From Neotamlana sargassicola (lineage in GTDB: Bacteria; Bacteroidota; Bacteroidia; Flavobacteriales; Flavobacteriaceae), in NCBI RefSeq assembly GCF_020523965.1, contig NZ_JAJAPX010000002.1, forward strand, positions 310,001-374,000: a stretch of DNA of 64,000 nucleotides, read 5' to 3'. Below, one piece after another: positions 50,595 through 64,000 of the stretch (its first letter is position 1; each line of letters starts with the position of its first letter). The notes below the pieces were generated by a model. That model was not told the origin of the DNA. It did not search any database and saw only the letters and a program-made list of their open reading frames with translations. A program made the translations under genes and the position numbers.

Positions 50595-51569
50595 TTATTC
50601 GTAAATTTTATTTTTCAGAATAACACCATTATTGTTTAAAGAACCGTCGGTTAACGATATGGTTCTCCAGCTATCATACAAAACAAGTCCGTTAACACCT
50701 GCACTAATAGCGGCATCGATACGAGTAGCTCGATCTGAAAAAGCAGCGTTGTTATTTACTTCAGAGTCCCATACAGGTAAATCTCCTGCGGCTTCAATAA
50801 AACCTGGCCAGCTGTCGTGGTTAAAACCTAAATTATGTGTTGTAGCAACGGTAATATATTGTTTTATATCGGTTTGCGTAAGCATTAAGGTTCCAGCAGG
50901 AACACCCCAAGTGCAAGGGCCTATTAACTCCGCACCGTTAACGTTATTGTGTAAGGCACTGTAAATTTCGTTTATTTGAGCAGTGCTCCAACCTACGCCA
51001 GGTCTTCCATCTTCGTTAAAAGGTGTAATCCAATCTACTTCATATTGGGTGGCGAATTCTTTAATTCTATTTATTACAATTTGTGTTGCTTCATCGTTAC
51101 CCAAAACCGATGGACCTGCAGCGCCTTGGTTATTAGGGTCTACAACAGTGCCATGTAATACTTTGTTAGCAATTCGTTGAGCGCCTTCCCACAGGGCAGG
51201 ATTAGCCATTATTTTAAATCCTTCGGCTTTTGCTCTAGTATAGAAATAATCGAACATTTCTTCGTTTGGGTTTTCACCTTCAGGGAAAATAGTAATTCTT
51301 ATACCTTGTACGCCTAACGCTTTAAAACCAGTTAATAAGTTCTCAACTTGAAGTGTTGTTGATAAAGAATTAAGTATTTGAGCTTGTTTTATATCACCTA
51401 GCACAATTTGTAGGTTTCCTGCGAAATCTCCGTTATCAATTTCTTCCACTTCTTCTTGAGGAAATAAAGGAATTAATTCGTCGGTATCTACACCGCCACA
51501 AGATAGGGTGAAGGAAATAAAAGTTATTAAAAATATTTTTGCCATATTATATTTAGTTGATAGTTTCAT
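50595..51569 (-). CDS. Unassigned exported lipoprotein, putative clan GH-A glycosidase
   Basis: A 324-residue lipoprotein (FTLSC). The body reads as a TIM barrel: VQGIRITIFPEGENPNEEMFDY, KAEGFKIMANPALW, EVDWITPFNEDG with Glu186, and LPVWDSEVNNN with Glu270, numbered from 51569. An NE near one strand end and an E on a later strand is the clan GH-A acid/base plus nucleophile pattern. An internal ATG at 51545 would give a shorter signal; no ribosome site decides between them. I do not recognise a family. It is the last gene of the minus-strand operon, after a sulfatase, and is a good candidate for the missing endo-acting enzyme. Confidence 0.72.
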   Translation of the reverse strand: MKLSTKYNMAKIFLITFISFTLSCGGVDTDELIPLFPQEEVEEIDNGDFAGNLQIVLGDIKQAQILNSLSTTLQVENLLTGFKALGVQGIRITIFPEGENPNEEMFDYFYTRAKAEGFKIMANPALWEGAQRIANKVLHGTVVDPNNQGAAGPSVLGNDEATQIVINRIKEFATQYEVDWITPFNEDGRPGVGWSTAQINEIYSALHNNVNGAELIGPCTWGVPAGTLMLTQTDIKQYITVATTHNLGFNHDSWPGFIEAAGDLPVWDSEVNNNAAFSDRATRIDAAISAGVNGLVLYDSWRTISLTDGSLNNNGVILKNKIYE

Positions 51570-51583
51570 TTTGATAATATTTT

Positions 51584-53068
51584 TTATTTAACATTTAGAA
51601 ATGCCGTTTGATTAAAAGTGAAAACATCGGAGTTTGTTCGGGCTTCCTTTAAAATTTGTTCCATTTCTTTTACAATTTCAGGGTGCTGAGCCGCTATGTT
51701 GTGTTTTTCTCCAATGTCTGTTGAAAGGTCGTAAAGTTGAATTTTCGACTCTCCTTTTTTAAGTACATTGTATTTTACAGCTTTCCAGTTGCCTTTTCTA
51801 ACGGCTTGCCTACCACCTCTTTCATGAAATTCCCAATACAAATAGTCGTGATTTTTTTGTGAATTTGTATCGCCTATAAGTGTAGGTAAAAATGAAATTC
51901 CATCGATATTATCTGGAGTATTCGTTTCTGCAATATCTGATAACGTTGGGAATACGTCCCAAAAAGCGGATATGTGGTTTGTTTTAGTTCCTGGTTGTAT
52001 TTTACCCGGCCAAGAAGCAATCATTGGAACACGAATGCCGCCTTCATATAAATCTCGTTTAAATCCTCTTAATTCGCCATTACTGTTAAAGTATTCTGGA
52101 TCGGCACCACCTTCTTTATGTGGCCCATTGTCGCTGGTGAAAATAATTATAGTGTTGTCTTCTAAACCAAGTTCTTTTATCTTGTTCACAATTTCACCTA
52201 CTTGGTTATCAAGTATTTCTACCATTGCAGCGAAAGCAGCGTGAGGTTCTTTTTGAGATTCATATGCGCCCTGTCTATACTTTGGGCCATCATCGGTCCC
52301 GATATAAGGTGTTTCAGGATTGTATTTTCCGCTATGTGCTTTTAAAATGTTTTCTGGTGCGGCCAATTCTGCATGAGGAATAACCGAAGCAACATAGGCA
52401 AAAAATGATGTGTCTTTATTTTTTTCTATAAACTCTATTGTTTTTTCATGGATAAGTTTAGGCGCATAAGTGCCTTTTAAATGTCCTTTGTTTTTTTGTA
52501 AAACTATCGAATCGTTATTATGCCATAAATGGTGGGGGTAGTAGTGATGGCCTAGTCTTTGGCAGTTATACCCAAAAAAGGTATCGAAACCTTGGAGAGT
52601 TGGATCACCTTCAGATTTTGGAAAACCGAGTCCCCATTTACCAAATGCTCCAGTTTTGTAACCAACTTCTTTTAATTGTTCTGCAATGGTAAACGTTTGG
52701 TCTGGTATTGGGTGTTGGCCTTCGGGTTTTATTTCTTTATTTCCTCTAATGGCAGTATGGCCAGTATGCATACCTGTCATTAATGCCGATCTGGATGGGG
52801 CGCAAACCGTGCTGCCAGAATAGTGTTGGGTAAATAACATACCGTTTTGAGCAAGCTTATCTATGTTCGGTGTGTTAAATTTAGTTTGCCCATAAACACC
52901 TACGTCACCGTAACCTAAATCGTCTGCTAAAATGTAAATAATATTAGGTTTTTTTTCTGTTTTACTGTTTGGCGTAACGGGATTAACGTTTTTATTAGAT
53001 GAATTACAGCAATAAAGAAGCAGTGTAATTAATAAAAATAATATGTTTTTAAATTGATACATACGCAT
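51584..53068 (-). CDS. Family S1 sulfatase (lipoprotein), CAPSR type with GKWG motif
   Basis: Sulfatase of 494 residues with a lipoprotein signal (LLLYC). LADDLGYGD, CAPSRSALMTGMHTGHTAIRGN (cysteine residue 89; motif given in part), FTSDNGPH and FKRDLYEGGIRVP are present. The GKWH histidine is missing: the motif is GKWGLGFP with Gly146. This Gly variant is, as I recall, common in the HTGHT-type arylsulfatase subgroup, so the enzyme is probably active with a different sulfate contact. It follows the SusD gene by 20 bases and is the only sulfatase encoded on the minus strand in this window. Confidence 0.94.
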   Translation of the reverse strand: MRMYQFKNILFLLITLLLYCCNSSNKNVNPVTPNSKTEKKPNIIYILADDLGYGDVGVYGQTKFNTPNIDKLAQNGMLFTQHYSGSTVCAPSRSALMTGMHTGHTAIRGNKEIKPEGQHPIPDQTFTIAEQLKEVGYKTGAFGKWGLGFPKSEGDPTLQGFDTFFGYNCQRLGHHYYPHHLWHNNDSIVLQKNKGHLKGTYAPKLIHEKTIEFIEKNKDTSFFAYVASVIPHAELAAPENILKAHSGKYNPETPYIGTDDGPKYRQGAYESQKEPHAAFAAMVEILDNQVGEIVNKIKELGLEDNTIIIFTSDNGPHKEGGADPEYFNSNGELRGFKRDLYEGGIRVPMIASWPGKIQPGTKTNHISAFWDVFPTLSDIAETNTPDNIDGISFLPTLIGDTNSQKNHDYLYWEFHERGGRQAVRKGNWKAVKYNVLKKGESKIQLYDLSTDIGEKHNIAAQHPEIVKEMEQILKEARTNSDVFTFNQTAFLNVK

Positions 53069-53088: not shown

Positions 53089-54648
53089 TTATCTATAGCC
53101 GTTATTGGTAGGGTCTGTATTTAATAAATTAGGGTTTAGTAAAAGCTCTTGTTGAGGTATTGGAAGTAAAACGTGTTTTTCTTGAATGTTCGCTCCCGGG
53201 TTGTTCCAAGCTCTGTGCTCAACAGTTCTAACAACATCTAAAAGAATTCCCCAGCGAATTAAATCCATTTTTCTATGTCCCTCGGCCGCAAGTTCAAATT
53301 TTCTTTCGTCGTACATAGCTTCTCTAAATTCTTGTTGCGATAATCCAGACCAAGGTTTGTTTGGCTCGAAAGCACGTTCTCTTACTTTGTTAACATATGC
53401 ATAAGCACCATTTGGCCCGTTTAATTCGTTTTCGGCTTCTGCCGCCATTAAATAGATGTCTGCTAACCTAAAAACGATATAGTTTTCGCTGTGGTTTTCT
53501 CTAGGAGACGTATTGTTTAAATTCCAGTTTTTGCGGTAATATGGGAACGATAATTGAAAACCTAGATATTCTGTTACAATGGTTGCATCATATCTTAAAT
53601 CGTCTGGATCCCAATTTGCTTGGTCTGCAATTTCAGGTAAAGGTATGGCCCAACCATAACCTGTCATATCTTGATCGATTTCTCCAAGTGCGTTAAATAA
53701 TAATTCCCAATTAGCTAACCCATCAGGATTATTAGTTGTTGGAACGCTATTTCTATCGGCGGGTTCATCTCTTAACCTTGGGTTATAATCGTCTGTTCTG
53801 TTTGTGTCTAAATCGCCAATAACAGGATCTGTAGTAAAATCTACAACAAAAATATGTTCTGCGTTATATTGATTGGTTATGTCTGTTTGGTCGAAAACAT
53901 CGGCAAAATTGTCGAGCAAAGTATGTGGTGAATAGTTTATTATTTCGTTACATGCATCTAAAGCAGGTTGCCATTCTTCATCAAACAAATAGAGTTTTGC
54001 TTGCAAAGCTTTTGCAGCCCATTTAGTGGCTCGACCAAGTTCGTCATCGCTATATGTTGATGGTAAAAGGTTATAGGCTTCTTCTAAATCTACTTTAATA
54101 TCTGTTCTAATCGTTTCTTTCGCAACGCGTTCTAAAACTGCCAGTTCGCTTAATGGTAGTAGCTCTCTAAAATAAGGTACATCGCCCCATAAATTTGTTA
54201 AATGGTAATAGGCTAAGGCGCGCATAAATAGAGCTTCTCCCATCACTTGTTCTCTAATATCTTCGGTTAAACTTTCATTGTTATCAACTCTATCAATAAT
54301 ATCGCAAGCATTTCTAATTAATTCATAAAGGCTACCCCAAACACCATTTCCATCGGATACGCCCTCGTTAATTAAGTAGTTGTGAATGTTAGCATTAACG
54401 TTTCTACTTGGTCCTACAACATCGGTACCGCTAACTAAATAATCATCGAGTCCTCTGGTTCTGTAAAGGTTTCCTCGGTGCAATATTCTATATAGGCCGT
54501 TCGAGGCTAAAATGGCTTCACTGTCGTTGTTGTAAAAGTTGCCAGTAGTTAGTAGCCCTCTTGGTTCTTCTTCTAAAAACGAATCGCAGGCAGTTAACAA
54601 AAGCACTGCAAAAACTAATATGTTTTTTATAATTATAGACTTTTTCAT
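53089..54648 (-). CDS. SusD/RagB-like glycan-binding lipoprotein, second pair
   Basis: The SusD partner of the minus-strand receptor. The frame is open from 54669, which would overlap the SusC gene by 11 bases, but the ATG at 54648 opens a clean lipoprotein signal (MKKSIIIKNIL to LLTAC) and is chosen, leaving 519 residues. DSFLEEEPRGLLTTGNFY, ALFMRALAYYHLTNLWGDVPYF, KWAAKALQAKLYLF, RLADIYLMAAEAENELNGPN, ERKFELAAEGHRKMDLIRWG and LLPIPQQELLLNPNL are canonical SusD segments, ending at NNGYR as such proteins often do. It is clearly not a recent copy of the first SusD. Confidence 0.96.
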   Translation of the reverse strand: MKKSIIIKNILVFAVLLLTACDSFLEEEPRGLLTTGNFYNNDSEAILASNGLYRILHRGNLYRTRGLDDYLVSGTDVVGPSRNVNANIHNYLINEGVSDGNGVWGSLYELIRNACDIIDRVDNNESLTEDIREQVMGEALFMRALAYYHLTNLWGDVPYFRELLPLSELAVLERVAKETIRTDIKVDLEEAYNLLPSTYSDDELGRATKWAAKALQAKLYLFDEEWQPALDACNEIINYSPHTLLDNFADVFDQTDITNQYNAEHIFVVDFTTDPVIGDLDTNRTDDYNPRLRDEPADRNSVPTTNNPDGLANWELLFNALGEIDQDMTGYGWAIPLPEIADQANWDPDDLRYDATIVTEYLGFQLSFPYYRKNWNLNNTSPRENHSENYIVFRLADIYLMAAEAENELNGPNGAYAYVNKVRERAFEPNKPWSGLSQQEFREAMYDERKFELAAEGHRKMDLIRWGILLDVVRTVEHRAWNNPGANIQEKHVLLPIPQQELLLNPNLLNTDPTNNGYR

Positions 54649-54658
54649 TTGTAAATTT

Positions 54659-57600
54659 TTAAAATTCAACTTTTAATCCTGCCAAAATACTTCTTGAGTA
54701 CGGGAATTGACCCGATGCAAATCCTTGAGAAACAGAACCGAAACCAGATCCTGCAGAAAAATTATTTACTTCGGGATCTCCTAGGCTAAACTTGGAAAAT
54801 AATGCAAGGTTGTTACCGGTAACATATATATTCATAGATTTAAATACATTTTTAAGGCTTGTTTGTTTTACCGGTATATCGTACGATAATGAAATAGACT
54901 TAAGTCTTAAAAACGAGCCGTCTTCAACGTTTACGGTACTGTTTGGATTAAAAACAGATGTGGATGTTCCAGCTCTTGGTACATCGGAAACTTCGTTTAC
55001 CCCTTGAATCCATCGGTTTAAAACTCTGGTGTCTAGGTTTTCTTCACCTCTTCCGTAAAAGGATGTTTGAGTTCTTACATTAAATACTTCGTTACCGTAT
55101 GAACCTTGGAAAAAGACATCTAATGCAAGGCTTTTGTATGTAAAAGTATTTCTTAAACCGCCAAAAAAATCGGCTTCGGGGCTTCCTATAATGCTATAAT
55201 CTAAATTGTTTATTGTACCGTCTCCATTTAGGTCTGTATATCTTGGACCGCCTAAAAAAGAGCGCCCAATTCTATTGTCATCTATAATTTCCTGTGCGTC
55301 TTGGTATGTTCCTAAGTATTCGGCACCAATAAAAGCGGGGAATGGTTGTCCTACAATTAATGCAGCCGAAGAACCGCCTTGGTTTCCAGTAGATTGTAGT
55401 GTGATAAAATCTTCACCTCCAAGTTCTAAAACTTTACTTCTGTTAGCCGATAAGGTTAGTGAAGTACTCCATTGAAAATTTGGTGTATTTATGTTAACAG
55501 AATTTAGCAAAAATTCTACACCTTGATTTTGAACACTACCTACATTTCTTAGTTGGCTGCCTCCAGCTGTGTTTGGTACGTCTTGAGATAAAAGTAAGTC
55601 TTTAGTTACTTTTTTGTAATAACCTGCCTCGAAATTAATTCTGTTTTTTAGGAAGCCAACTTCTAAACCAAGATCTAATTGCTCTGTAGTTTCCCATTTT
55701 AAACCAGAAGAAGCTGGAGCTCCTAAAATTACAGCAGAACTTAAGTTTTCGTTAAACGTAGTAAAGGTGGGCGAAAACCTGTCGAACGAGTTGTAGGCAG
55801 AAACACCTTGTTCCCCAACAATACCAAAACTACCTCTTATTTTTAGGTTGTTAATTAAGCTTTGGTTTTGCATGAATTTTTCTTCATCAATGTTCCAAGC
55901 AACACCTGCCGATGGGAAAAATGCGTATTTATTTCCATCTTCGAAAACAGAAGAGCCATCGTAACGTCCTACTAAAGTTAAAACGTATTTTTTATCGAAT
56001 GAGTAGGTTAAACGACCTAAAAAAGATGCTAAAGTTCTTTGTGAATATCCAGAACTTACTAAGTATGTTTCTGGGTCCGAACCAATTTCTAAACCATTAA
56101 ATTCTAATACATCAAATGGAAAACCTTCGGCACTAGCCGATGAAGATTCGCTAGTATCCTTTTGCCAAGTAAAACCGCCTAATAAATTAAAGTTATGTTT
56201 GCCAAATTCTTGTTTAAAATTTAAGGTGTTTTCTTGAAGAATACTTTTACTGTTAGTTATTTGTACTCTACCATAACCGCCCTCATTATTGTTTAATAAA
56301 CGTTCTGGAAGGGCACCAGGTAAATATTGGTTGTTTTTGTAAAAATTTAAACTTGCTCCAACGCTAGATTTAAATGTTAAACCTTTTAAAACTTCGTATT
56401 CTATATAAGTGTTAGCTATTATGTTTGTAACCAAGTCGTGATCTACTCGTAATTGTATATCTGCTTCTGGGTTACGTTGCAAGGTTCCACTTATTGGGTT
56501 TGTTCCTGTAAAGTTGCCATCATCATCATAAACTGTTCTTACCGGTAAAACATTTTGTACTATTTGAGCGTAGTTTACTTTATTATTCTCTTTGCGTTGT
56601 CCGGTAATATTTAATCTAAATCCTGTTTTAAATTTATCCGAAATGTCATAATCAAGATTGCTTCTAAAAACAACTCTTTCTAACCCAGATCCTTTAATAA
56701 TACCTTCTTGATTAAAATAATTAATTGAAGAATAGTAATTTACATTTTCGGCATTACCAGAAACCGATAAATCTACGTTTTGTTTAATTCCAACTTGTGA
56801 AACTAAGTCAATCCAATCTGTGGTTTCTACAGCGTCTGGGTCGCTATATAAAAGCGGCAGAGTTTCGTCTGTAAGGCCAACAGAAACTGGAATTCCATTT
56901 ACATCAACCGTGGGCCCAGGCGTAAATTGAGATCCTTCGTTAACGTATCTTATGTAGTCGGAACCACCAAGAATGTCAATTTTATTCGTAAGTTCTTCAA
57001 CGCTAGTGTAAACGTTTAGGGATATGGTTGGTTTTCCAGGTTTTAATCCTTTACCATTTTTTGTACTTATAATTACAACCCCAGAAGCACCTCTTGTTCC
57101 ATAAATTGCTAATGCTGTTGCATCTTTTAATATTTCAATAGATTCAATATCATTAACATTTATATTATTTAGGTTAAATCCGGTGCCCACAATAAATCCG
57201 TCTATTACAAATAGCGGGTTGTTATTACCGTTAATAGAGCTATTTCCTCTAATTCTTATTGTTGCACCAGAACCTGGAGCACCGTTGTTTGATGTAACTT
57301 CAACTCCGGCAGCACGACCTTGAAGCGCTTGGTCTACTCGTGCAACAGGTTGGTTTTGTAGCGCATCGCCATCAATAGATGCTACAGCCGAAACCAGTTC
57401 CTTTTTACTACTAGTACCATAACCAATTACAACAACTTCGTCTAAAGCTTGGGCATCTTCTTGCATAATAATGCTTAAATTGGTCTTGTTGCCAATAACT
57501 ATGGTTTGTGTAATGTAGCCTACATACGAAAACTGTAACTCGGTTGTGGTAGATGTTTTAATAGAGAAGTTTCCATCGAAATCGGATGTTGTTCCAGCAG

Positions 57601-57745
57601 AGGCACCTTTAATAACTATGTTAACCCCTGGTAGCGGAACATTATTTGCATCGGTAATGACTCCATATATTACTTTCTGTTCTTGGGCTTGAGTAATCCC
57701 AATTATGCCAGAAAACAACATAATAATTATAAATTTAAAATTCAT
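54659..57745 (-). CDS. SusC-like TonB-dependent outer-membrane receptor, second pair
   Basis: Complete receptor of 1028 residues. A Sec signal (to about residue 20, GITQAQ) precedes a carboxypeptidase-regulatory-like domain (about 25-105, VIYGVITDANNVPLPGVNI). LDEVVVIGYG is the usual SusC motif before the plug, and the plug (about 115-230) has ALQGRAAGVEV, IRIRGNSSI, PLFVIDG and ILKDATALAIYGTRGASGV. The remaining residues form the barrel. It heads the minus-strand operon, its start faces the divergent control region, and its stop lies 10 bases before the chosen SusD start. As with the first pair, the transported glycan cannot be named. Confidence 0.97.
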   Translation of the reverse strand: MNFKFIIIMLFSGIIGITQAQEQKVIYGVITDANNVPLPGVNIVIKGASAGTTSDFDGNFSIKTSTTTELQFSYVGYITQTIVIGNKTNLSIIMQEDAQALDEVVVIGYGTSSKKELVSAVASIDGDALQNQPVARVDQALQGRAAGVEVTSNNGAPGSGATIRIRGNSSINGNNNPLFVIDGFIVGTGFNLNNINVNDIESIEILKDATALAIYGTRGASGVVIISTKNGKGLKPGKPTISLNVYTSVEELTNKIDILGGSDYIRYVNEGSQFTPGPTVDVNGIPVSVGLTDETLPLLYSDPDAVETTDWIDLVSQVGIKQNVDLSVSGNAENVNYYSSINYFNQEGIIKGSGLERVVFRSNLDYDISDKFKTGFRLNITGQRKENNKVNYAQIVQNVLPVRTVYDDDGNFTGTNPISGTLQRNPEADIQLRVDHDLVTNIIANTYIEYEVLKGLTFKSSVGASLNFYKNNQYLPGALPERLLNNNEGGYGRVQITNSKSILQENTLNFKQEFGKHNFNLLGGFTWQKDTSESSSASAEGFPFDVLEFNGLEIGSDPETYLVSSGYSQRTLASFLGRLTYSFDKKYVLTLVGRYDGSSVFEDGNKYAFFPSAGVAWNIDEEKFMQNQSLINNLKIRGSFGIVGEQGVSAYNSFDRFSPTFTTFNENLSSAVILGAPASSGLKWETTEQLDLGLEVGFLKNRINFEAGYYKKVTKDLLLSQDVPNTAGGSQLRNVGSVQNQGVEFLLNSVNINTPNFQWSTSLTLSANRSKVLELGGEDFITLQSTGNQGGSSAALIVGQPFPAFIGAEYLGTYQDAQEIIDDNRIGRSFLGGPRYTDLNGDGTINNLDYSIIGSPEADFFGGLRNTFTYKSLALDVFFQGSYGNEVFNVRTQTSFYGRGEENLDTRVLNRWIQGVNEVSDVPRAGTSTSVFNPNSTVNVEDGSFLRLKSISLSYDIPVKQTSLKNVFKSMNIYVTGNNLALFSKFSLGDPEVNNFSAGSGFGSVSQGFASGQFPYSRSILAGLKVEF

Positions 57746-57827
57746 AAAATCAGTTTATTTAGTTAGTAATAAAATTTAGGTAAATGTAGTAACAAGCGTT
57801 TTATTAAATATCTTAATTAAAGTATAC

Positions 57828-57840
57828 AAATGTTGCAAAA
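57828..57840 (-). promoter_or_regulatory. Candidate operator, minus-facing copy
   Basis: TTTTGCAACATTT read on the minus strand, 82 bases ahead of the SusC start. It is identical to the plus-facing copy at 58003-58015. A candidate binding site for the hybrid regulator encoded at 59901, by position and symmetry only. Confidence 0.55.
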
Positions 57841-58002
57841 CACCTAATTTTTGGCATTTTACATTCAATGTACTTTTATCTAGTATGTTTGTTTTTGGGG
57901 GTTAATATAGGTAGATGGTTTTAATGAGGCTCTATGTTTTTTAGCTGTTAACATTGTTTTGCAGCTGTATTTCTTTTTAATAAATAAAATGATGAAAATG
58001 CC

Positions 58003-58015
58003 TTTTGCAACATTT
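58003..58015 (+). promoter_or_regulatory. Candidate operator, plus-facing copy
   Basis: TTTTGCAACATTT on the plus strand, 101 bases ahead of the start of the LamG lipoprotein gene. Identical over 13 bases to the copy that faces the SusC gene; the following TTAC/TATAC stretches are also similar. Confidence 0.55.
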
Positions 58016-58116
58016 TTACACCTTATTAGAAACACGATAAACACCTCGTTAATGTTCTTTTTTTAGAAATTGGCATTCATTAAAAAGACTAACTAAAAGA
58101 TTTAAACTAAATTATT

Positions 58117-59784
58117 ATGACAATTAAAAAACTATGTAGTTACGCGTTTATAGTATTAATGGTTGTATGCTCTTGTAGTGATGATGTTAATGTTATAGAC
58201 TACACTGAGTTTGATTCGGTTTTAGCAGAGGCAAAAAATGCAGCCGATGTATCAAAGGAAGGAGAATCAAACGGAGATATAACTATTGGCGCAACGGTTA
58301 TTTTGGAAGCTGTAATTGCTCAGTACGAAACTTACAGAGAAACTGCTATAAACCAAGGTACTTTAGATATTGCAACCAATAAAATAAGCGCCGCTTTAGA
58401 TACTTATTTAAATAGTATAGTTATTATTGATGGTTCTAGCCTAGAGTCTACAATAACGAGTGCGCAAACGTTACATGATAATGCAGTAGAAGGTATTTAT
58501 CCCGGAGAGTACGAGGTTGGCTCAAAAGCTACTTTACAAGCGGTTATAGATGCTGCCTTAGTAGTTTCTAATAATACAGAATCGACACAAGCTGAAATCA
58601 ACACAGCGCTTGCCAATTTATTAGTAGCTATAAATGCTTTTGAAGATGCCGAAAACCCACCTTTAGATTTTACGAATTTAGAAGCTGAAATAACCGGAGC
58701 ACAAACCTTACATGATGCTGCCATTGAAGGTACTGCAATTGGAGAGTATGCGGTAGGTTCGAAAGCAACTTTGCAAACAGCAATTGATGCTGCACAAAGT
58801 GTAGTCGATACTACAGAGCTTTTGTCGCAAGCCGATGTTGATGCTGCTTTACAGACTTTACAATCGGCAGTAGAAGATTTTAACTTAGCAAGAGTTGGTG
58901 GCCCAGATAGAGATATAACCCAACTTACGGCAACCATTGCAAACGCACAAGCAATACATGATGCAGCCGTGGAAGGTACAGAACTAGGAACTTATCAAAT
59001 TGGTTCTAAGGCTATATTGCAATCGGCTATAGATGATGCTCAAGCTGTTGCAGACGATATTTCAACCGGACAAACAGTTGTAGACGATGCCGAACAAACT
59101 TTACAAGACGCAATTGCTGCTTTCGAGGAAGCGTTGCAAGGTGTTTATGTTGTTAGTTTAGGAGGTGCAGATTATATTGAAACACCAACATTTCAAGGAA
59201 TAGCGGGTGCTGCCGAACGTACTATGGAAGCTTGGATTAAAACCGATCAATCTACAGCAACTACAACCTTAATTCTTTCATGGGGAATTAATGCCAATAG
59301 AGAAAAATGGGACATGAGAATAAACTCTGGTTCGTTAAGAATTGAATATAGCGGTGGTGGCGTAAATGGAACTGCTACTATAAACGATGGTCAATGGCAT
59401 CATGTGGCCGTTGTTATGTCTGCTAGTTTAGATATAGAATTGTACGTAGATGGTGCTTTAGATGGTTCTGGTGCCGCAACTGGAATTATTTCATCAACAG
59501 CAAACAATTTTAATATAGGAAGAAGCACAGGACAGCCAGATCGCCATTTCTCTGGTTTAATTAGCGATGTGCGTATTTGGAGCGTTGCCCGTACAGCTTC
59601 TCAAATTGCAGATAATAAAGATGTACGTTTAACAGGTAGCGAAACTGGTTTAACGGGTTATTGGAAGTTAAATGATGGTAGTGGCACGTCGGCTGCAGAT
59701 TCTGGACCGGCTAATCATACCGGTAATTTTGTAGGAAATCCTATTTGGGAAAAAATAACTTCTGGTTTGCCTTTTTCTAATTAA
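58117..59784 (+). CDS. Repeat-plus-LamG surface lipoprotein, probable glycan-binding protein
   Basis: A 555-residue lipoprotein (signal ending VVCSC). Residues about 111-187, 188-269 and 270-344 are three clear helical repeats of about 75-82 residues with the core TLHDAAIEGT, GEYAVGSKATLQTAID and a final ALQTLQSAV, resembling FIVAR-type modules; a weaker first copy covers about 30-105. The C-terminal part (about 345-550) is a LamG/concanavalin-like domain: TMEAWIKTDQS, QWHHVAVVMS, ELYVDGALDGSG, FSGLISDVRIWSVAR, GYWKLNDGSG. No catalytic motif is seen. The stalk-plus-lectin design and the shared control region with the second SusCD operon suggest a surface glycan-binding protein. Confidence 0.85.
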   Translation: MTIKKLCSYAFIVLMVVCSCSDDVNVIDYTEFDSVLAEAKNAADVSKEGESNGDITIGATVILEAVIAQYETYRETAINQGTLDIATNKISAALDTYLNSIVIIDGSSLESTITSAQTLHDNAVEGIYPGEYEVGSKATLQAVIDAALVVSNNTESTQAEINTALANLLVAINAFEDAENPPLDFTNLEAEITGAQTLHDAAIEGTAIGEYAVGSKATLQTAIDAAQSVVDTTELLSQADVDAALQTLQSAVEDFNLARVGGPDRDITQLTATIANAQAIHDAAVEGTELGTYQIGSKAILQSAIDDAQAVADDISTGQTVVDDAEQTLQDAIAAFEEALQGVYVVSLGGADYIETPTFQGIAGAAERTMEAWIKTDQSTATTTLILSWGINANREKWDMRINSGSLRIEYSGGGVNGTATINDGQWHHVAVVMSASLDIELYVDGALDGSGAATGIISSTANNFNIGRSTGQPDRHFSGLISDVRIWSVARTASQIADNKDVRLTGSETGLTGYWKLNDGSGTSAADSGPANHTGNFVGNPIWEKITSGLPFSN

Positions 59785-59807
59785 TACGAGATTAAAAACA
59801 TAAAATT

Positions 59808-59849
59808 AAACCTAAAATAGAATATTAACGCATATTCTATTTTAGGTTT
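59808..59849 (+). terminator. Strong intrinsic terminator after the LamG lipoprotein gene
   Basis: A perfect 18-bp stem (59808-59825 pairs with 59832-59849) with a 6-base loop TAACGC, ending in a run of six Ts (59847-59852). It lies 24 bases after the stop and about 50 bases before the regulator gene, so it separates the lipoprotein transcript from that of the regulator. Confidence 0.9.
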
Positions 59850-59900
59850 TTTATATTTAGTCTTGAAACCAACCACTAAAGAGACCTGTATTAATTTATT

Positions 59901-62900
59901 ATGAAACGCTACTTACTGCTTTTTTCTATACTTATTTTATTTTTTAAAGGATTTTCACAAACTGCCGCATCCTCATTTTTAGAGCTTAAAATTGATGGCG
60001 TGAGTTTTAACAAAAAAACCAATGTTATTTTTGAAGATGATTTAGGTTTTTTATGGTTAGGCACCAATAATGGTCTTTTTCGATATGATGGCCATAGTTT
60101 AAACGAAAATGTATTTAATGTTTTTGATGAAAATTCTATTCCCAATAATAATATTAACTCGATAATAGAGGATGATTTTGGTAATTTATGGTTGGGCAGC
60201 GAAAGTTACTTAATAGCTTATAATAGAAAGCAAAATATTTTTAAAGGGTTCTATAAGGATAAAAGTTCTAAAATACTTGGGAAATCGGCCAACGGAACCA
60301 TTTGGGCTTTTGTTCAAAAGGTAGGCTTAATTAAAATAAAATCAAATAATAAAGTTGAAGCCGTAACGCTAGACTCGAATATTAATTACAAAAAAAATAA
60401 TGCTCAAAACCAAATTGCAGGCGCTACCATATATAGTTATTTGCAGGATGATTTTGGTAGAAATTGGTTTACATCATCAAAAGGAGTTTTTATTTTAGAT
60501 GAATCTGAAACTATAATAAACTCCAATCTCAATGATAAATTATTAACCTTTAAAAAAGGTAAAAACAATACCATACTTGCATCAACCGAAAACGAGATTA
60601 AAGTTTTAAAGTATTTTAAAAACTCTACCGATTTAAAAATTTTAGAAACCTATAATTCAGGTCATTTTTTTAAGGACGAAAATATTACATGTAATATAAA
60701 TTCATGTTCTACCGAAAATAAGGGAGATGTTATTTGGTTAGGTACAAATATTGGATTGTTAAAAGGAGAAAGCGGAATTAATGGGTATCAATTTTCATTA
60801 TTTAAAACCTATTTGCAAAAAAAGGAAAATTTAAGCAATCAAATTAATACATCGTTAATAGATAGGTATAATAATCTGTGGGTAGGCACCCAAAAAGGGG
60901 TTAATAAACTTATAGGGAAAGCCAATATTTTTCAAGAGATATCAATAAATACAGATTTAGCCAACGTTTTTGCGACTTCTATTTTACCAGAAAATAAAAA
61001 TCAAATACTTGTAGGGTTTAGAAACAAAGGTTTATATCGGTATAATTTTAAAAATAAGACCACTAAAAATTTGTTTAATGCTACAGGAGAGGTGTCTTTT
61101 TTAAAAATAGATTCAATAAATAAAATGTTGTTTTTAGCTGTAGGTAATAAATTATTGAAAGCCGAAAATTACAGTCCAAAAAACTCCAGAATTACTCTGG
61201 ATACCATAAAAAAATATAGTAACCCAATTAAGGATGTAGTAATTGTAAACGAAAACAGTATTTGGGTTGGTATGTGGAGCAAAGGAATTGATATTGTTGT
61301 TAACAGAGAAAAAACTTTATTCGAAAAAAAAGTTATTTCAACCTTAGCCAATAACAATGTGTTTGTAATGCATTTAGATAAAAAGCAAAATATTTGGATA
61401 GGAACCAGAGGCGAAGGTCTTTTTAAAGTGAATATTAAAAACCAAACGCTTAAACATTTTACCCCGAGTTTAAAAAACGGTTTATCTTCAAATGCAATTT
61501 TATGTATTAAAGAAACAAAAGATGGAAATATATGCATTGGAACCCGTGGCGGTGGATTAAATATTTATAGCGAAACCAAAACAGATCAAATAAAAATATT
61601 TAATAAAAATAATGGGTTATTATCGGGTACTATTTGCAGTATAGAAGAAGACAAAAAAGGAAATTTATGGTTAAGTACCTTAGCTGGAGTTTCTCACCTA
61701 GATTTGTCCACTCAAAAAATAAAAAACTTCGCAGCCGATGAAGGTGTAAACCATCGCCAGTTTACGTTTAACGTGCAAAATTCGTTTCAAGATCACTTAT
61801 TTTTTGGGTGTTTGGGAGGCTTTTACATTGTAAATACAAATAACTTTAAAGAAACTAGCTTATTAGCTAATACGGTAATTACCGATTTTTCAATATTTGG
61901 GAATGCTGTTAACGATAGCTTAATTCAAAAAAACAATGCCATCATTAAGCATAAGTTACGAAATAACGAAGTTATAGAGTTACCGTACAACCAAAACAAC
62001 TTAGTTATTAAATTTTCGTCTTTAGATTTTACTTCGCCCAGTAAAAACAAATTTGCCTATAAACTAGAGGGTGTAAACGATTTTTGGCTAAATACCGATG
62101 CAACAAACAGAAATGCTAATTATAATAATTTGCCTCCTGGAACTTATACGTTTATGGTTAAAAGTACAAATAGCGATGGTGTTTGGAATGATAAGCCAGC
62201 GCAATTAGCATTTGCCATAACACCGCCAATTTGGAAAAGTAATACCGCCTTTTTGTTATATGCAATTTTAGGTGTTTTTAGTATTTGGTTGGCGTGGTAT
62301 TTAATTAAAAATTGGTATAGATTAAAGAAAACTTTAGTGGCAGAGACCGTAAGTAGAGAAAAGGATAAAGAGCTTCATAAAATGAAAATGACTTTTTTTA
62401 CTGATGTTTCTCATGAGTTAAGAACACCTTTAGCATTAATTCAAGGCACTATAGAAAAAGTGGTTAAAGAAAAAAAGTTTGAGCTCAATCCAATGTCGTC
62501 ACAACGTATTTATAATAATACACTCAGGATGCAACGACTTATAAATCAAATGTTGGATATTAGAAAATTTGATGAAGGAAAATTAAAGCTAAATATTTCA
62601 AAAAACGATATTTTAACAGATATAAAAATTATAAAAAATGCCTTTAACGATTTTGCTAAAATTTATGAAATAAAATATGAGCTTAATACAAGTTTAACAG
62701 AAGCAAATGGTTGGTACGATGTCGATATTTTAGAAAAAATACTGTTCAATCTTTTATCTAATGCATTTAAATATACTAAGGAAAAAGGAGAAATAACATT
62801 AAATGTAGAGTTGATAAAAGATTTGAATTCAAAAAAAGAATTCGCGAAACTTCAAAAAGGAAAATATATTAAATGTTTAGTAAGAGATAACGGTGTAGGA

Positions 62901-64000
62901 ATACCAGAAAAAGATTTAGATCGTATTTTCGATAGGTATTACCAAGCCACAAAAACCTATACAAATCAAATTCCCGGAACAGGTATTGGTATGGAGCTTG
63001 TTCAAAAATTAGTGGAGAGACATCATGGTTTTATATCGGTAGCGAGCGTAGAAAATGTTTTTACAGAATTTGTGTTTTATTTACCGTTAGATAAAAATAA
63101 ATATCAAAAAAGTGAACTTTTAGAAAAAGGCATGCCTTTAAAGAAAAACTTTATAAAAAATTCTGAATACCAGGTAATTGAAGAGGTGTCTTCAGAATTT
63201 GATGCAAAATCAAACGCTAAAAACACCCATAAACCTAAAATATTAATTGTTGAAGATAATCCAGATTTAAGGCAAATGCTAAAGGATGAGTTGAGTAATT
63301 CATATAATATAATTGAAGCCGAAAATGGTCAAGAAGGGTACAATATGGTTTTAAAAGAAAAACCGCAATTAGTAATAAGCGATGTTTTAATGCCAATAGA
63401 AGATGGAATAAGTATGTTAAAACGACTAAAAAATAATGTTGAGGTTAACAATATTCCAGTATTTATGCTTACCGCCAAAACAGCAAACGAAACAAAAATA
63501 GAATGTGTAAGTCTTGGAGCAGAAGATTATATAGAAAAACCGTTTAGCTTAGAGTTTGTAAAATGGAAAGTTAAAAATGCCTTGGTAACCAGAAAAATTC
63601 TGAAAGAAAAATTTAGTAAAGTCATTACGGCAAAACCTTCAGAAATCGAAATAGAATCGAGCGACGAAAAATTTGTTAAAAAACTAATTAAAATTATTGA
63701 AGATAATATAGACGACAATTTACTTAGTGTAGAGTTTTTAGCTTCGGAGGCAGGTATGAGTCGCGCCAATTTGTACCGAAAATTACAAGTTATTGTTAAC
63801 GATACGCCTGTTAATTTTATTAAAAAAATAAAGTTAAAACGAGCGGCTCAATTACTTGAACATGGAGATTTGTATATTTCGGAAATAGCTTACATGACAG
63901 GATTTAATAACCAAAAATACTTTAGCAAATGTTTTAGTAAAGAGTATAACATGAACCCAACACAGTATGTAAAAAAATATGCTAGCTCCAAATCTTCAAA
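59901..64000 (+). CDS. Hybrid two-component system sensor/regulator (HTCS), 3' end cut by the window
   Basis: One-piece sensor kinase and transcription factor that typically senses PUL-derived oligosaccharides in the periplasm. A Sec signal (to about residue 20, KGFSQ) precedes a two-component-regulator propeller (about 25-660) with repeated GNLWLG-type motifs (WLGTNNGL, WLGSES, WVGTQKG, WIGTRGEG). A Y_Y_Y-like domain (about 700-775), one membrane helix (about 784-804), a HisKA domain with SHELRTP (His838), an ATPase domain (NLLSNAFKYT near 950; GTGIGMELV near 1027), a receiver with Asp1161 and an AraC-type helix-turn-helix (about 1267-1360) follow. 1366 codons are visible with no stop, so only a few residues should be missing. 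It is the likely regulator of the adjacent units. Confidence 0.96.
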   Translation, partial: MKRYLLLFSILILFFKGFSQTAASSFLELKIDGVSFNKKTNVIFEDDLGFLWLGTNNGLFRYDGHSLNENVFNVFDENSIPNNNINSIIEDDFGNLWLGSESYLIAYNRKQNIFKGFYKDKSSKILGKSANGTIWAFVQKVGLIKIKSNNKVEAVTLDSNINYKKNNAQNQIAGATIYSYLQDDFGRNWFTSSKGVFILDESETIINSNLNDKLLTFKKGKNNTILASTENEIKVLKYFKNSTDLKILETYNSGHFFKDENITCNINSCSTENKGDVIWLGTNIGLLKGESGINGYQFSLFKTYLQKKENLSNQINTSLIDRYNNLWVGTQKGVNKLIGKANIFQEISINTDLANVFATSILPENKNQILVGFRNKGLYRYNFKNKTTKNLFNATGEVSFLKIDSINKMLFLAVGNKLLKAENYSPKNSRITLDTIKKYSNPIKDVVIVNENSIWVGMWSKGIDIVVNREKTLFEKKVISTLANNNVFVMHLDKKQNIWIGTRGEGLFKVNIKNQTLKHFTPSLKNGLSSNAILCIKETKDGNICIGTRGGGLNIYSETKTDQIKIFNKNNGLLSGTICSIEEDKKGNLWLSTLAGVSHLDLSTQKIKNFAADEGVNHRQFTFNVQNSFQDHLFFGCLGGFYIVNTNNFKETSLLANTVITDFSIFGNAVNDSLIQKNNAIIKHKLRNNEVIELPYNQNNLVIKFSSLDFTSPSKNKFAYKLEGVNDFWLNTDATNRNANYNNLPPGTYTFMVKSTNSDGVWNDKPAQLAFAITPPIWKSNTAFLLYAILGVFSIWLAWYLIKNWYRLKKTLVAETVSREKDKELHKMKMTFFTDVSHELRTPLALIQGTIEKVVKEKKFELNPMSSQRIYNNTLRMQRLINQMLDIRKFDEGKLKLNISKNDILTDIKIIKNAFNDFAKIYEIKYELNTSLTEANGWYDVDILEKILFNLLSNAFKYTKEKGEITLNVELIKDLNSKKEFAKLQKGKYIKCLVRDNGVGIPEKDLDRIFDRYYQATKTYTNQIPGTGIGMELVQKLVERHHGFISVASVENVFTEFVFYLPLDKNKYQKSELLEKGMPLKKNFIKNSEYQVIEEVSSEFDAKSNAKNTHKPKILIVEDNPDLRQMLKDELSNSYNIIEAENGQEGYNMVLKEKPQLVISDVLMPIEDGISMLKRLKNNVEVNNIPVFMLTAKTANETKIECVSLGAEDYIEKPFSLEFVKWKVKNALVTRKILKEKFSKVITAKPSEIEIESSDEKFVKKLIKIIEDNIDDNLLSVEFLASEAGMSRANLYRKLQVIVNDTPVNFIKKIKLKRAAQLLEHGDLYISEIAYMTGFNNQKYFSKCFSKEYNMNPTQYVKKYASSKSS

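Follow-up and report, generated by a model that had tools for sequence, protein, structure and literature searches.

The 371 bp that separate a SusC-type receptor gene from a divergently transcribed LamG lipoprotein-type gene, in the stretch of 64,000 nucleotides analysed here (the window), carry two identical 13-bp elements, one facing each gene, and the question that they raise is what they belong to and which protein might read them. Marine-type flavobacteria possess many PULs, and the targets of their HTCS regulators are guessed from gene neighbourhood. Our analysis indicates that each of the two 13-mers is very probably the upstream half of a tandem-repeat operator of the HTCS encoded at 59901. 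The direct support for this assignment consists of the sequence itself, its conservation, its co-occurrence with the HTCS, successful prediction in held-out genomes and a fixed spacing to the -7 box.

Both copies of TTTTGCAACATTT stand exactly where an earlier note on this DNA had placed them, at 57828-57840 on the minus strand and 58003-58015 on the plus strand, 82 and 101 bp upstream of the respective ATGs (57745, minus; 58117, plus), and the HTCS gene is, as that note also had it, 1.8 kb away, counting from the LamG start to its own start at 59901. The two copies form the sole non-overlapping 13-bp inverted pair within the 371 bp. The claim that such a pair is unlikely by chance is borne out: among 5000 dinucleotide shuffles of the region, 116 contained some 13-bp inverted pair and 10 contained one with three or more G/C, counts that make chance an improbable source without being decisive alone. 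Taken by itself, moreover, the 13-mer is not enriched, neither in the 64-kb window (13 matches with up to two mismatches, 12.7 expected) nor in the 3.6-Mb genome, where the one-mismatch scan that had been proposed as a check returned 58 matches against 75 for a reversed control, thereby ruling it out as a genome-wide signal; the third exact genomic copy lies within an ORF. The shorter ACTAACTAAA is indeed present in both leaders, as claimed, yet a scan of the window that allowed one mismatch counted 14 occurrences where 11.2 were expected, so that it adds little and was discarded as part of the control unit.

The distinctive unit is a tandem operator of about 30 bp, of which the 13-mer is the upstream half, and it is distinctive only as a whole (Table 1). 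When 11 SusC-facing and 11 rightward sites were aligned on the anchor TGCAACA, both sets displayed a common core composed of TGCAACAT, a C at +15 (10/11 and 11/11 sites, respectively) and a second box in direct repeat, at +21 on the SusC side and +22 on the HTCS/LamG side, with little information in the columns beyond both boxes and the -7 box. The letters of the second box differ between the two sets. In rightward sites positions +22-28 form a GMAACA-like box, and positions +26-28 read ACA in 10 of 11, or in 14 of the 15 HTCS/LamG-facing sites once the four held-out genomes described below are counted (4/4), and four loci (L025, L044, L047, L052) display a perfect 22-bp GCAACA direct repeat; SusC-facing sites carry a TGAGAY-like box at about +21, and that of the window, TTAAGATA, is a weak repeat of TGCAACA only.

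Table 1. Operators, promoter box and genes of the locus (window coordinates)
Feature	Position	Strand	Evidence or remark
Left operator facing the SusC gene	57808..57839	-	Profile R1, E 1.1e-4 in own genome; PWM 20.4 and 26.2 (leave-window-out); anchored 11-locus alignment
Left operator boxes	TGCAACA 57831-57837; second box TTAAGATA 57809-57816	-	
-7 promoter box TACATTTA (TAnnTTTR)	57781..57788	-	At +49 relative to the first T of TGCAACA
Right operator facing LamG	58004..58035	+	R1, E 2.2e-5 in own genome; leave-window-out PWM 35.8, top of 64 kb
Right operator boxes	TGCAACA 58006-58012; second box AGAAACA 58028-58034	+	22-bp direct repeat
SusC-type TonB-dependent receptor gene, leftward target	54659..57745	-	Pfam
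SusD-type gene with uncertain start codon, probably in the SusC operon	53089..54669	-	Pfam
Sulfatase gene, likely same operon as SusC	51584..53068	-	Pfam; tblastn
Gene for a 324-aa protein lacking Pfam matches, probably closing the leftward operon	50595..51569	-	
LamG lipoprotein-type gene (FIVAR, Laminin_G_3), rightward target	58117..59784	+	Pfam
Terminator-like hairpin between LamG and HTCS genes, 18-bp stem, T-rich tail	59808..59849	+	Scan; fold
HTCS gene, presumed binder	59901..64000, ends 64019 (19 bases past the window)	+	Pfam

The specificity of the whole operator is high. Profile R1, built from 22 sites, ranks the two sites of the window first in the entire 3.6-Mb genome (E 2.2e-5 and 1.1e-4), with the next match at 0.21; since both sites form part of the R1 training set, PWMs trained without the window are the fairer test. 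Over the 64 kb, the right-type PWM places the pair on top (35.8 and 20.4, followed by 8.7, against 10.8 in one shuffle), as does the left-type PWM (26.2 and 25.5, next 13.3, shuffle 14.8), and upstream of the other plus-strand genes between 1 and 50 kb of the window no site approached the scores of the pair. Among 17 inter-gene gaps tested, six contained a site unmatched by 500 shuffles, two a site matched by 2 and 6 shuffles, while in nine at least 20 of 500 shuffles scored as well; these last are conserved gaps that lack a site and weigh against the assignment. Likely false R1 matches in other genomes are G002 C67 and G348, both inside ORFs, and the match G011 C24, for which no explanation emerged; the three other genomes of the genus of the window yielded a single R1 match, inside an ORF.

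A further result concerns the distribution of the operator across the family, in which LamG and HTCS were searched in 397 genomes and SusC in 396, with 17 SusC matches at E<=1e-280 and 15 HTCS matches at E<=1e-290, the own genome included. Besides the window, 17 loci were compared (16 SusC relatives plus the L024 locus set); an HTCS orthologue of 50-70% identity adjoins SusC in 10 of them and is absent in seven. In all 10 HTCS-bearing loci two GCAACA-based elements face outward, the left one being degenerate in L024 (TGTTGTT) and in L049 (TGTTGCG). In the seven loci without the orthologue, TGCAACA is missing from the 550 bp scanned and the best PWM scores range from -1.7 to 8.5. R1 matches at E<=0.05 likewise occur in 14/14 other genomes with an HTCS orthologue, 10 of which are training genomes and four are not, and in none of the seven with a SusC relative and no such HTCS, a comparison to be read with the caveat that in five of these seven SusC is also more distant; L045 is a poor control as well, because the gene upstream of its SusC gene runs in the same direction. 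In the three HTCS-less relatives examined (L046, L053, L054), FecR and ECF sigma genes adjoin SusC, so that replacement of the regulator becomes visible: SusC relatives devoid of the HTCS are devoid of the site, with another regulatory pair alongside in those three. As to the conservation that the earlier note had proposed to look for, what persists before the orthologous genes of genomes with the HTCS orthologue is the operator; the identity of the two 13-mers is a trait of this genome that its relatives do not share.

Four genomes (G002, G323, G383, G121), which contain an HTCS orthologue and no SusC match at E<=1e-280, were held out. In each, the gap upstream of the HTCS gene holds a PWM site (24.8, 17.7, 28.3 and 26.7) that none of 300 shuffles equalled, although these HTCS-adjacent sites fall short of the R1 cut-off of E 0.05 and are detected by PWM only. 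At that cut-off R1 returned eight matches elsewhere in these genomes: three precede GH2 beta-galactosidase genes (by 132, 149 and 132 bp), three precede SusC-type genes only 26-34% identical to that of the window (by 124, 126 and about 126 bp), one precedes the gene of a secreted LRR protein and one is inside an ORF. For some of these targets the distance to the HTCS gene amounts to 67-87 kb. These results support the view that the operator tracks the HTCS orthologue across genomes, and not SusC. The definition of the operator is thus precise enough for remote targets to be named (GH2 genes and second SusCD pairs, up to about 87 kb away), and the regulon of one HTCS becomes readable from sequence. 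The proposal that the pair is the operator of the nearby HTCS is thereby strengthened in its assignment of the regulator and revised in its unit, which is the tandem operator of about 30 bp.

That the sites belong instead to another regulator, for instance a global factor of the Crp-like or some other kind, or an HTCS paralogue, is improbable, yet deserves consideration. AACAT resembles one half of the Bacteroides Crp-like palindrome described in PMC3878776, and in another PUL with its own HTCS (L097:6365-6520) R1 weakly matches a site with CAACATTTGTATACC before the SusC gene (E 0.35), so that a paralogous HTCS may recognise a related site. A global factor should nonetheless have many sites, whereas R1 finds two in 3.6 Mb; the layout is that of a direct repeat and not of a palindrome such as TATGTTnTAnAACATA, and sites are present in 14/14 genomes with the HTCS orthologue and in 0/7 without it. 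Within the same L097 interval two outward-facing elements, TTTTGCTACATTT and TTTTTCAACATTT, loosely resemble the pair of the window, with 84 bp between them.

The geometry of the promoter bears on a second alternative, namely that the 13-mers are nothing but basal promoter sequence in which the TTTG within TTTTGCAAC acts as the -33 box. In all 11 SusC-facing loci a TAnnTTTR box lies at +48/49, with all six positions kept in nine of them, and among 13 further sites outside the profile set a perfect (6/6) box at +49 is found in seven; it accompanies seven of the eight sites with a TGA-type second box and none of the five with other types. With T numbered -12, following PMC6847099, a -7 box 48/49 bp downstream puts the second operator box at about -39 to -33, and susC transcription would begin at about 57776 with a leader of about 31 nt. 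TTTG is, admittedly, the flavobacterial -33 element according to the same source, and the 13-mer does contain it; on the SusC side, however, some 51 bp separate it from the -7 box where roughly 20 would be expected, relatives keep GCAACA but not the TTTG before the box, and basal promoters would turn up genome-wide, all of which renders this explanation very improbable. That the inverted repeat is a functionless product of chance has a negligible probability, for although the 13-mer is not enriched and 116 of 5000 shuffles contained some such pair, the sites are conserved in 15 loci, appear and disappear with the HTCS and predicted new sites. On the HTCS/LamG side no -7 box at a constant distance emerges: none of 15 sites has a 6/6 -7 box at +48/49, and the best of the offsets searched, +59/60, gave at least 5/6 positions in 7 of 19 sites against a mean of 4.0 and a maximum of 7 in 1000 shuffles. 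A scan of 57000-60200 for promoters of the E. coli type found nine where 12.2 were expected, an uninformative count.

The neighbourhood of the right operator speaks to the further claim of the earlier note, that the pair couples the SusCD operon to LamG. Where an HTCS orthologue is present, its own gene is the one on the right of the pair in 12 of 15 loci, and only in the window, L023 and L024 does LamG stand between the operators and that gene, in all three followed by a terminator-like hairpin. These three loci fall on one side of a branch of the HTCS tree (support 86/79), the root of which is unsure because the outgroup paralogue sits on a very long branch (8.8). The spacing of the outward pair is 37-41 bp in 12/15 loci as computed by script (L087, in which the right copy is degenerate, measures 38 by hand), against 175 bp in the window, 60 and 184 bp in L023, and a 39-bp pair with a third copy in L024. 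It therefore appears from these arrangements that the HTCS gene was the rightward target first and that LamG was inserted in this clade. In L025 LamG lies downstream of the HTCS gene with a site of its own (PWM 19.3, 0/500 shuffles), so that LamG plausibly belongs to the regulon in either layout, in line with the earlier note. In L086-L089 it is a sulfatase orthologue, identified by tblastn, that faces the HTCS gene.

The presumed binder is a full HTCS with an AraC-type DNA-binding domain (Reg_prop, Y_Y_Y, HisKA, HATPase_c, Response_reg and AraC-type HTH by Pfam). Its 15 orthologues share HTH1 SRA(N/S)LYRK and HTH2 TGF(N/S)NQ(K/R)YF, with recognition helices nearly invariant in 15/15 and different in the paralogues of the own genome, and all 15 retain the HisKA SHELRTP motif and the receiver Asp. 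The S/CHIP His of the receiver alpha3-beta4 loop is missing in 13/15 orthologues, L024 and L052 being those that keep it, and three HTCS paralogues of the own genome carry SHIP. PMC11253607 links this His to inhibition of DNA binding; by analogy, its loss may allow the present HTCS to bind DNA without phosphorylation.

From these elements we infer HTCS binding, activation and the direction of autoregulation. Upon glycan sensing, the dimeric HTCS would place two AraC-type DNA-binding domains on the operator, where they would contact TGCAACAT(N)ACC and the second box two helical turns downstream. The SusC-side promoter has a good -7 box but no TTTG -33 box, the second operator box covering about -39 to -33 instead, and it is this missing element that leads us to propose that the HTCS replaces the corresponding contact of RNA polymerase, thus activating the susCD-sulfatase genes from the left operator. 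The right operator belongs to a second type, marked by a GAAACA second box at +22 and by the lack of a -7 box at a constant distance. In most relatives an operator of this type stands directly before the HTCS gene, where it would serve autoregulation; with LamG interposed in this clade, it may now mainly drive LamG, and read-through from LamG into the HTCS gene is conceivable. A bolder and rather doubtful extension is a two-letter code, in which a TGAGAA/TGATAA box 48/49 bp before the -7 box would turn on enzyme and transporter genes, whereas a GMAACA box devoid of that spacing would subject the gene of the regulator (here LamG) to a different, perhaps repressive, control, with an HTCS that is maybe DNA-bound without phosphorylation as the switch.

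It is well supported by the sequence comparisons that these sites are of the same kind as the direct-repeat HTCS operators of Bacteroides, in another bacterial family. Ravcheev et al. (2013; PMC3878776) predicted the latter, also by phylogenetic footprinting, as two-box direct repeats at an average distance of 21 bp (here 21/22), situated upstream of susCD and of enzyme genes that neighbour the HTCS gene; the likeness is one of spacing and layout. What differs here is the occurrence in Flavobacteriaceae, the back-to-back arrangement towards susC on one side and the HTCS gene on the other, the two subtypes of second box and the fixed -7 spacing. BT4124 and BT4663, equally HTCSs with an AraC-type domain, bind susCD promoters of B. 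thetaiotaomicron in EMSA according to PMC11253607, an action shown there and predicted here; relative to that paper, the S/CHIP His is kept in just 2/15 of the present orthologues. The flavobacterial sigma-A promoter, defined in PMC6847099 and PMC9723704 as -33 TTTG and -7 TAnnTTTG, is matched by the TAnnTTTR box downstream of SusC-facing operators and departed from in that the second operator box occupies the -33 position. The openly accessible literature searched showed no operator for a flavobacterial HTCS; new here are the letters of the operator, its back-to-back arrangement, the two types of second box and the distance to the -7 box.

Some minor observations concern the surroundings of the locus. 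From 1 to 50514 the window carries a long plus-strand run rich in sulfatases, together with GH97, GH116, GH43-like and raffinose-synthase-type genes, which is without the operator and must be controlled otherwise. Upstream of a secreted LamG gene, L059:3473 is a weak candidate site (PWM 5.9, reached by 20/500 shuffles). A candidate operator at 64049 in window numbering (L059:49), in the HTCS-GH2 gap just past the window, scores 14.5 by PWM with 0/500 shuffles reaching it, and stays a candidate because it is absent from R1 matches up to E 10. In G011 (C24), an intergenic R1 match at L105:5651-5674 (E 0.031) lies near a FecR gene.
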